From: a bacterium
GTDB lineage: Bacteria; UBA9089; CG2-30-40-21; SBAY01
Assembly: GCA_040757115.1 (NCBI GenBank)
Contig: JBFLYA010000223.1
Span: 1 to 6,036, forward strand
Reading direction: 5' to 3'
Length of the DNA: 6,036 nt
Shown here in pieces: positions 2,966 to 5,873 of this stretch. The notes below the pieces were generated by a model. The model searched no databases. It had not been told where the DNA came from and saw nothing but the letters and a program-made list of their open reading frames with translations. Each line of letters opens with the position of its first letter. Within the stretch, counting starts at the first letter, position 1. The translations under genes were made by a program, and so were the position numbers.

Positions 2966-2983
2966 TTTTAACCACAAAGATGA

Positions 2984-3204
2984 TATAGCACTTATTAATC
3001 GAAATTTGACCCAGATATGGCTATGAAATTCCAAATCACAAATTCCAAAATACAAATAAATTCCAATGACCAAAATTCAAAACATTGCCCCCATAGTTTG
3101 GTATTTATTACTTGAAATTTGGTGCTTATTTGAGATTTGGTGCTTGGGATTTGGGATTTTTTACTTATCCACCCTGAGTAAAATTTTGACTAATAACTGC
3201 TATA
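2984..3204. repeat. 221-bp symmetrical element with 27-nt terminal inverted repeats and CAAA heptad arms
   Basis: The first 27 nt (2984-3010, TATAGCACTTATTA...) and the reverse complement of the last 27 nt (3178-3204) match at 23 of 27 positions without gaps. The interior continues the symmetry: 3031-3065 against 3120-3154 matches 25 of 35 without gaps, and CCAAAATTCAAA (3070-3081) faces CTTGAAATTTGG (3111-3122). The left arm has CAAA-type words starting at 3032, 3039, 3046, 3053, 3064, 3071 and 3078. The right arm mirrors this on the other strand, ending at 3153, 3146, 3139, 3132, 3121, 3114 and 3100. The spacings are 7 nt with one 11-nt gap at the same place in both arms. It encodes no protein and I saw no clear target-site duplication. 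It may be a miniature inverted-repeat element or a dispersed palindromic repeat. Confidence 0.8.
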
Positions 3205-3221
3205 GGATTTATAAATTATAG

Positions 3222-4547: not shown

Positions 4548-5571
4548 ATCTCTTATAAAAAGTATTTTGTATTATAGCGGCATAACACAACTCCTTCACG
4601 ATTTTATCGCCTCAAAGACAAGATTAGCGGTGATATTGAGGTATCATTCCGTCGCAGATGAAGACTTCGTTTATGCCACCCCGAAAATAACCGTTTCGAC
4701 AAGAGATTTTGAAAAACAAATAAAATATCTCTCTAAAAAATATAATATTATTTCTCTTGAAGATATTGCTGTCCACATTAAGGAAGGCAAAGAGTTACCC
4801 AGGAATTCATTAGCCATTACCTTTGATGATGGGTATAAAGATAATTATCTAAATGCCTATCCTATTTTAAAAAAATATGGTGCGACCGCGACATTTTTCC
4901 TTGCCGCAGGATGTATCGATGGGAAAGATATACTCTGGACACATCGAATCATCCATCTGGTCAAGGAGATAAAAAAGAAAGAAATCTCCCTTGAAAACCA
5001 TCTCCTTAAATTTGAAACAGTTAAGGATAAATTAGTGTCGATAAATATCCTTAATTCGATAATTCTGCATCTTGACCAATCTAAAAGGGAAGAATTTATC
5101 ACGGATTTAACCAGGAAATTTGAAGTAGGGATAAACAGAGAGGAACTTAGTCGTAAATATATGTTGTCCTGGGATGAGGTTAAGAAGATGGAGGGTATGT
5201 CCTTTGGTGGTCATACAGTTACCCATTGTAATCTGCCACATTGCTCTTATGAATATGCCAGGGAAGAAATTGAAGGTTCAAAGAAAATCCTGGAAGAAAA
5301 AATAGGCAAGCCGATAAATTTATTCTCTTATCCGAATGGCACAATTGAGGTTCATTTTAATGAGGAGAATAAAAAACTGGTTAAAGAGGCTGGTTTTATC
5401 TGCGCCGTAACTTCTCTTGATGGGCTGGCTGACAATAAAAGCGACCTCTATGAGTTAAGAAGAAAAGGGATTGGGAAAGAGACTAAATTGTATTGTCTGG
5501 CGACAGAGATTGTAGTAAATACTGTGTTATATTCTCATAGGGTTCTGCAAAATAGGATTTGGGGAAGATAA
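4540..5571 (+). CDS. Polysaccharide deacetylase (CE4/NodB homology domain)
   Basis: This 343-aa carbohydrate esterase family 4 protein would remove N- or O-acetyl groups from a glycan with a divalent metal. RYHSV (34-38) is the first strand. TFDDGY (94-99) holds the catalytic-base and metal-binding aspartates D96 and D97. HTVTH (225-229) supplies metal ligands H225 and H229. FSYPNG (262-267) is the third motif, with the classical arginine replaced, as is common in this subgroup. About 80 residues between TFDDGY/TATFFLA and LSWDEV (209-214), rich in Lys, Glu and Leu, form an insertion that lengthens the domain. I see no signal peptide or lipobox, so it probably acts in the cytoplasm on a precursor, or exits by another route. 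The ATG at 4540 overlaps the ATPase stop by 8 bases and has GGGAAGG at 4528-4534 as ribosome binding site. It has no promoter of its own. It fits the upstream glycan genes in function. The exact substrate is unknown. Confidence 0.93.
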   Translation: MIKSLIKSILYYSGITQLLHDFIASKTRLAVILRYHSVADEDFVYATPKITVSTRDFEKQIKYLSKKYNIISLEDIAVHIKEGKELPRNSLAITFDDGYKDNYLNAYPILKKYGATATFFLAAGCIDGKDILWTHRIIHLVKEIKKKEISLENHLLKFETVKDKLVSINILNSIILHLDQSKREEFITDLTRKFEVGINREELSRKYMLSWDEVKKMEGMSFGGHTVTHCNLPHCSYEYAREEIEGSKKILEEKIGKPINLFSYPNGTIEVHFNEENKKLVKEAGFICAVTSLDGLADNKSDLYELRRKGIGKETKLYCLATEIVVNTVLYSHRVLQNRIWGR

Positions 5572-5600
5572 ATGAGAGTTAGACCTGAAATTAGAGATAA

Positions 5601-5653
5601 AAATTCAAATATCAAATATCAAAATGCAAAATTACAAATCAAATTTCAAAAAG
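5601..5653 (+). repeat. CAAA heptad array downstream of the deacetylase
   Basis: CAAA words begin at 5606, 5613, 5620, 5627, 5635, 5640 and 5647, so spacings are 7, 7, 7, 8, 5 and 7 nt. The first two units are identical (TCAAATA). The word and the 7-nt period match the left arm of the element at 2984-3204, although flanking letters differ and here only one arm is present. A 29-codon open frame crosses it but is probably spurious. Confidence 0.65.
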
Positions 5654-5671
5654 GACTTTAAGAAAAGACGG

Positions 5672-5698
5672 TATAGCGGTTATTAACTGGAAGTTTAC
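5672..5698 (+). repeat. Third, degenerate copy of the 27-nt end repeat
   Basis: TATAGCGGTTATTA...GTTTAC matches each of the two ends of the element at 2984-3204 at 20 of 27 positions without gaps, with TATAGC and TTATTA conserved. It points away from the copy at 3178-3204, so the ATPase-deacetylase pair is bracketed by inverted copies. A GGATAA word shortly after the repeat is also found after the inverted copy at 3178-3204. No inward partner is visible on this side, so it may be the remnant of another element. Confidence 0.55.
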
Positions 5699-5733
5699 AT
5701 AGGATAATACCCATAAATAAGGCAGGAGAATAA

Positions 5734-5813
5734 TCGTTCCGTTAGGAACATAATATCGGTAGGAATAGATAGACAAATCAATCAGTTCCGTAGGAACGAT
5801 ATATTGGTAGAAA
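5734..5813 (+). repeat. Two tandem copies of a GTTCC-GGAAC hairpin repeat
   Basis: Copy A has GTTCC (5736-5740), GTTA, GGAAC (5745-5749), then ATAATATCGGTAGGAA. Copy B has GTTCC (5785-5789), GTA, GGAAC (5793-5797), then GATATATTGGTAGAAA. The copies start 49 bp apart and share the hairpin and the ATAT-GGTAG-AA tail. Short palindromes with such a conserved tail resemble dispersed REP-like elements of environmental bacteria. A related CCCGTAA word at 5845-5851 may be a third, decayed copy. Confidence 0.6.
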
Positions 5814-5873
5814 ATTTATGGAAAGCCATTTACCCATATATTGTCCCGTAAGCGTTCAGGTGGTGTAACAAAA

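Follow-up and report, generated by a model that had tools for sequence, protein, structure and literature searches.

The 221-bp element at positions 2984–3204 of the window (the whole 6,036-nt stretch of DNA analysed here; it is contig C223 of the host genome, whose 462 contigs total 4.3 Mb) is a MITE, and its interior is evidently an IVP cassette without its ORF. The CAAA rhythm in its arms is inherited from the repeat arrays that flank an S23/IVP gene. Moreover, such arrays are general: IVP genes in many bacteria are flanked by inverted arrays of about 7 nt, in which the word is specific to the locus and the period and left–right complementarity are kept. MITEs, IVP proteins, rRNA intervening sequences (IVSs), and bacterial heptamers are each already known. 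The tie between heptads and IVP genes apparently is new: a search of the open literature (bioRxiv and most subscription journals lay outside it) found no paper that makes this link.

The mobile element

The element has a glycosyltransferase gene on one side and an AAA_14/DUF4143 gene on the other. An earlier reading of the sequence alone had described 27-nt inverted ends, along with CAAA words that run at 7-nt steps and are broken once, by 11 nt, at the same place in both arms. Both descriptions hold. The left terminal inverted repeat (TIR), TATAGCACTTATTAATCGAAATTTGAC (2984–3010, forward strand), matches at 23/27 positions TATAGCAGTTATTAGTCAAAATTTTAC, the reverse complement of the right end (3178–3204, reverse strand). 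The mirrored 7/11/7 spacing is real, though two words are imperfect: left-arm words start at 3032, 3039, 3046, and 3053 and, after the 11-nt jump, at 3064 (CAAT, not CAAA), 3071, and 3078; right-arm words end at 3121 and, after the jump, at 3132, 3139, 3146 (CTTG), and 3153. Folded as RNA, positions 2970–3220 form a single long hairpin (−60.6 kcal/mol, z = −5.1; equalled by 0/200 shuffles). Its only ORF is a spurious one of 51 codons, so the element is non-coding. It has no Rfam match and no similarity to plasmid DNA.

Further copies, for which the sequence-only reading had proposed a search, are plentiful. The host genome holds about 30 more that are full-length or nearly so, in two subfamilies, and partial ones besides; about 18 are 90–97% identical over most or all of their length, and roughly twelve others, which belong to a longer subfamily, are 76–81% identical. 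Copies are numerous in the sister species also. The TIR pattern (two mismatches or fewer) has 155 matches in the host, 127 in the sister species, and 31–64 in three more distant relatives, versus 0 for a reversed-pattern control. The loci examined contain 42 TIR-bounded insertions that are distinct from one another, and almost all of these end TATAG...CTATA between unrelated flanks.

The window itself contains an empty target site. MITE copies L003, L004, and L023 occupy the identical position of another repeat, which stands without a MITE at 5820–5850 of the window (unstranded) and reads TTTACCCATATATTGTCCC at 5829–5847, with the TA at 5837–5838. The filled site at L023 reads TTTACCGA-TA-(TAGCAG...GTGCTA)-TA-TATTGTCCC, and L004 is different at one base. 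Set against these two filled sites, the window's empty one reveals that TA was duplicated. Copies, flanks, and this comparison together delimit the whole MITE (2984–3204, unstranded), whose terminal TA pair (TA-TAGCA...TGCTA-TA) is the duplicated target. The repeat that received the three copies is itself dispersed, occurring at window positions 5730–5850 and at L003, L004, and L112 as GTTCCGTAGGAAC palindromes followed by ATATTGGTAGAAAATTTATGGAAAGCC.

The sister species offers no orthologous empty site, as the two flanks lie on separate contigs and a heptad-armed insertion of another kind occupies the right one. That insertion (L258) stands at the orthologous position, upstream of DUF4143, and has GTCTTAT words and the ends CTGTGATTCAGACAG...GTCTGAATCACAG.

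Target duplication of TA is typical of IS630/Tc1-mariner elements. At L267, in a genome of the same family, the C-terminus of a DDE_3 protein ends inside the TIR TATAGCACTTATTAAGCAAAAGTG; at L269, in a genome of the same phylum, a DDE_3 remnant is bracketed by two TIRs of this type. Because its TIR is common to IS630-type transposase remnants in these two relatives, the MITE likely was moved in trans by an IS630/Tc1-mariner transposase. The host's own IS630 copies, so far as they could be read, were rejected as the direct partner: of seven DDE_3 matches, those that were readable show different TIRs, and four are truncated where their contigs stop. An intact autonomous IS630 element bearing the MITE's TIRs (TATAGCACTTATTA ends) was not found. 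Good support for the suggestion of a structured element moved in trans comes, then, from the many dispersed copies, the TA duplication with its empty site, and the TIR shared with transposase remnants.

The 7/11 spacing is kept across copies, a weak point by itself given that most copies are more than 90% identical. Array L035, in a genome outside the phylum, makes the stronger case, because it is diverged and has another word, yet shows the same 11-nt break (AAATCCG AATACCG AAATCCG AAACAAATTAC AATGACC).

Origin of the arms

The CAAA-array pattern (CAAANNNCAAANNNCAAANNNCAAA) has 186 matches in the host genome, well beyond the MITE family. (A reversed-word control is uninformative here, as heptad arrays match the reversed word too.) One of these places, L087/L138 (AAATTCCAAATCACAAATTCCAAAATACAAATAAATTCCAATGACCAAAATTCAAAA), continues into a four-helix-bundle gene at its start codon; the product of this gene matches TIGR02436 and PF05635 (S23/IVP). 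The left heptad arm of the MITE (3026–3082, forward strand; CAAANNN words with one 11-nt break) is identical at 57/57 positions to the 5′ flank and first codons of this TIGR02436 gene at L138 and L139. The ATG lies at 3066 (M T K I Q). The leftover ORF start (3066–3101, forward strand) reads ATG ACC AAA ATT CAA AAC, and then homology ends; beyond these few codons the element has no TIGR02436/PF05635 ORF, for which L138 is the intact relative. The right heptad arm (3097–3159, reverse strand; TTTG words) matches the 3′ flank of the L138/L139 gene at 51/63 positions (81%) without gaps, and pairs with the left arm in the fold. Between the arms, where comparison with the gene places the absent ORF, the hairpin has only a short centre (3083–3096, unstranded).

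These matches, 57/57 and 51/63, identify the interior of the MITE as an IVP cassette lacking its ORF. With no more than 81% identity between the right arm and the 3′ flank at L138, this locus is related to the donor but need not be the donor itself. Inside the same ends, the core of subfamily B is 89% identical over 46 nt to the IVP flank at L121; IVP material thus was captured at least twice. It had been said that no gene here explains the element. This is true of the window, but an IVP gene elsewhere in the genome does explain the arms, as its flanks. An IVP-cassette origin is not claimed for every CAAA array: IVP-ORF homology adjoins only 7/30, so most are either ORF-less or not derived from IVP genes.

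Other IVP elements occur nearby and elsewhere in the genome. A second, truncated cassette remnant in the window (5560–5675, forward strand) comprises the 5′ heptad arm and first codons of the L137-type IVP gene and is 95.7% identical to L137 over 116 nt; an end similar to the MITE TIR, TATAGCGGTTATTAACTGG, terminates it. At L138 and L139 the IVP gene sits in an element of about 720 bp with CTAGTGCTCTGTCGC ends, which probably is multicopy and assembly-breaking, because many contigs end in copies of its 5′ part. Another multicopy IVP element, with ends GTAACTATTCACC...GAATAGTTAC, is found at L115, L123, L125, L127, L128, and L135; its ORF is broken in several copies, and apparent 8-bp duplications flank it at L123 (AATAATTC) and L128 (CTATAAAT).

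Arrays around IVP genes

Matches to PF05635 number 26 in the host genome and 34 in that of the sister species, versus 0 in 14 control genomes (summary-table counts). At nearly all of 30 such loci that were read, tandem repeats of about 7 nt stand upstream of the gene and their inverted complement stands downstream. The words differ with the kind of IVP locus (GGGACTC, GTAAGTC, TTTAGTG, GGGAAGC, AGAGGAC, GCAGAGG, GGTAACT, CAAAANN), and a few loci have a period of 6, 8, or 9 instead of 7.

Inverted arms, scored at a threshold of 15 or more, are present at 35/37 IVP loci in two genomes, versus 2/163 control windows. In named genomes from many phyla, 52/80 IVP loci pass the threshold, versus 10/456 controls, a few of them in windows that run into an arm; about a third of the IVP loci in these other genomes fall below it. 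(This sample is biased to one IVP subgroup, as the genome search used a single consensus query.) Mean self-match at lags of 7, 14, and 21 is 0.40, 0.37, and 0.34 in both flanks of 79 IVP loci from unrelated bacteria, versus 0.26–0.29 in controls. The two arms also belong to each other: a locus's own arm pair has a median score of 18, versus 9 with foreign arms, and in a sample of 25 loci the arm duplex has an energy of −37.5 kcal/mol, versus −24.5 kcal/mol with foreign arms.

Plasmid IVP genes from Nostoc, Azospirillum, and Riemerella score 32, 26, and 22; one from Calothrix scores 8 and is without the pattern. At L251 and L252, on cyanobacterial plasmids, repeat-flanked IVP genes have as neighbours cas6 and cas4 in one instance, cas10 and a cmr3-family gene in the other. 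The literature catalogues IVP genes of cas operons as cas-associated (PMC3936711); a passenger cassette is an alternative reading of them.

A model and its rivals

The S23/IVP proteins, known from the 1990s onward, have solved structures but are not known to have a function. Two structures from the family, 2gsc and 2rld, each have five chains of one sequence, and Lin et al. 2006 (as cited in PMC4990558) describe 2gsc (XCC0516) as a homopentameric toroid. The passages of PMC4990558 on 23S rRNA place a gene of this same family in the loop of an inverted-repeat stem, which RNase III cuts.

A joint explanation, which we regard as very probable, combines a TIR/TA MITE, a core made of ORF-less IVP flanks, the general heptad arrays of IVP genes, mobilisation in trans by IS630, and a weaker step that involves an RNA stem and a pentamer. 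An IS630/Tc1-mariner transposase would move the MITE in trans, with the IVP flanks riding as passenger. In the parent cassette, by analogy with the 23S rRNA intervening sequences, the arms may form an RNA stem that holds the ORF in its loop; the phased array would be a site for the pentameric IVP protein. Phase, not word, would then be what the IVP protein or its mobility needs. In the MITE, where the ORF is absent, the putative IVP site would be a relic or a decoy. The favoured reading of the heptads is an RNA stem to which the pentamer binds, although this step is put forward with less assurance than the others.

The heptads might instead be functionless. Polymerase slippage or hairpin-templated repair would expand repeats in a palindromic cassette, and gene conversion would keep the arms alike. 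This is a serious rival, albeit one that we consider somewhat improbable. It sits comfortably with words that differ freely among loci, with arrays that vary from about 3 to 12 units, with the occasional periods of 6, 8, and 9, and with some arrays so nearly perfect that they look recently expanded. Slippage does not, however, predict that one period (7, echoed at 14 and 21) should dominate in phyla that are unrelated, or that the repeats on both sides should always accompany a single protein family. Also against it, spacers vary more than words inside the MITE. Among MITE copies, words are 0.7% variable versus 3.3% for spacers (permutation p = 0.017, with copies that are related by descent and not independent). 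The sequence-only reading had proposed selection on the words and their phase. Inside the MITE family this contrast is a weak argument for it; the retention of phase while letters drift is strongly supported at IVP cassettes across bacteria. The same reading envisaged a protein-binding array. That the CAAA array is a host-protein site of the MITE itself, unconnected with the IVP gene, would agree with the better conservation of words, but it is very improbable: the left arm equals the IVP gene's 5′ flank at 57/57 positions, start codon included, and the same architecture with quite different words recurs at other IVP genes.

Mobility, too, could be assigned differently. The IVP cassette might be an autonomous mobile element, its protein recognising the inverted arms and moving the cassette, in which case the TIR elements merely captured it. 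Within one genome IVP cassettes occur in at least three settings: with CTAGTGCTCTGTCGC ends (L138/L139), with GTAACTATTCA ends and apparent 8-bp duplications (L123, L128), and with no visible TIR. They are also found in tight intergenic gaps, for example among cas genes of cyanobacterial plasmids. Against this, IVP proteins are small four-helix bundles, and a non-systematic look at TIR-less cassettes saw no clear target duplication. We know of no nuclease motif in IVP proteins. On balance autonomous movement seems unlikely, and the joint explanation, with the IVP flanks as passenger of an IS630-type MITE, is preferred.

Reaching further, S23/IVP genes throughout bacteria may form a distinct class of selfish cassette. 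Each would have inverted, phased arrays of about 7 nt with a word private to its locus or lineage; the pentamer would recognise phase and the pairing of the arms, and ORF-less arms would spread as MITE cores. This idea is tentative, and we do not hold it to be the probable one. If true, such cassettes would explain some of the heptameric repeats that bacterial genomes hold in unexplained excess.

The conserved architecture around S23/IVP genes (inverted 7-nt arrays, free word, fixed phase) offers a concrete, testable substrate for a protein family that is not known to have a function. IVP cassettes may be one common source of the dispersed heptamers known from separate reports on Xanthomonas, cyanobacteria, and Beggiatoaceae; they may also suggest another reading of IVP genes inside cas operons.

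Relation to known systems

The GGGAATC heptamers of Xanthomonas and GGGGA(C/T)T heptamers of Nostoc (PMC4692102), like the IVP arms, form 7-nt tandem arrays. Xanthomonas genomes each contain 70–75 convergent pairs, the geometry seen around IVP genes. PMC4692102 has 0 mentions of S23 or four-helix-bundle genes; by analogy, the convergent pairs are a possible instance of IVP-flanking arrays. The TAACTGA direct repeats of Beggiatoaceae (PMC4679880, with 0 mentions of an S23 link) resemble IVP arrays in being intergenic, 7 nt long, and near start codons. They differ in being mostly upstream direct repeats of one genome-wide word, with only one inverted case.

The intervening sequences in 23S rRNA of Coxiella and Leptospira carry an S23p/IVP ORF, from the same protein family, in the loop of an inverted-repeat stem (PMC4990558); the passages there on these sequences make no mention of heptads. 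Unlike them, the element studied here is intergenic, lies outside rRNA (without an Rfam match), and has a stem built of tandem repeats of about 7 nt. Avd, a protein of diversity-generating retroelements (NF033474), is a distant IVP relative (E = 2.6e-6, under the curated cut-off), whereas the IVP proteins here belong to TIGR02436.

Bacterial MITEs derived from IS630/Tc1-mariner elements are the closest match to 2984–3204 as a mobile unit: both have TIRs, a TA duplication, a length of a few hundred bp, no coding capacity, and multiple copies, and the TIR is held in common with IS630 DDE_3 remnants in relatives. The interior sets the element apart. Rather than an internally deleted insertion sequence, it evidently is a four-helix-bundle cassette with phased 7-nt arms and no ORF.
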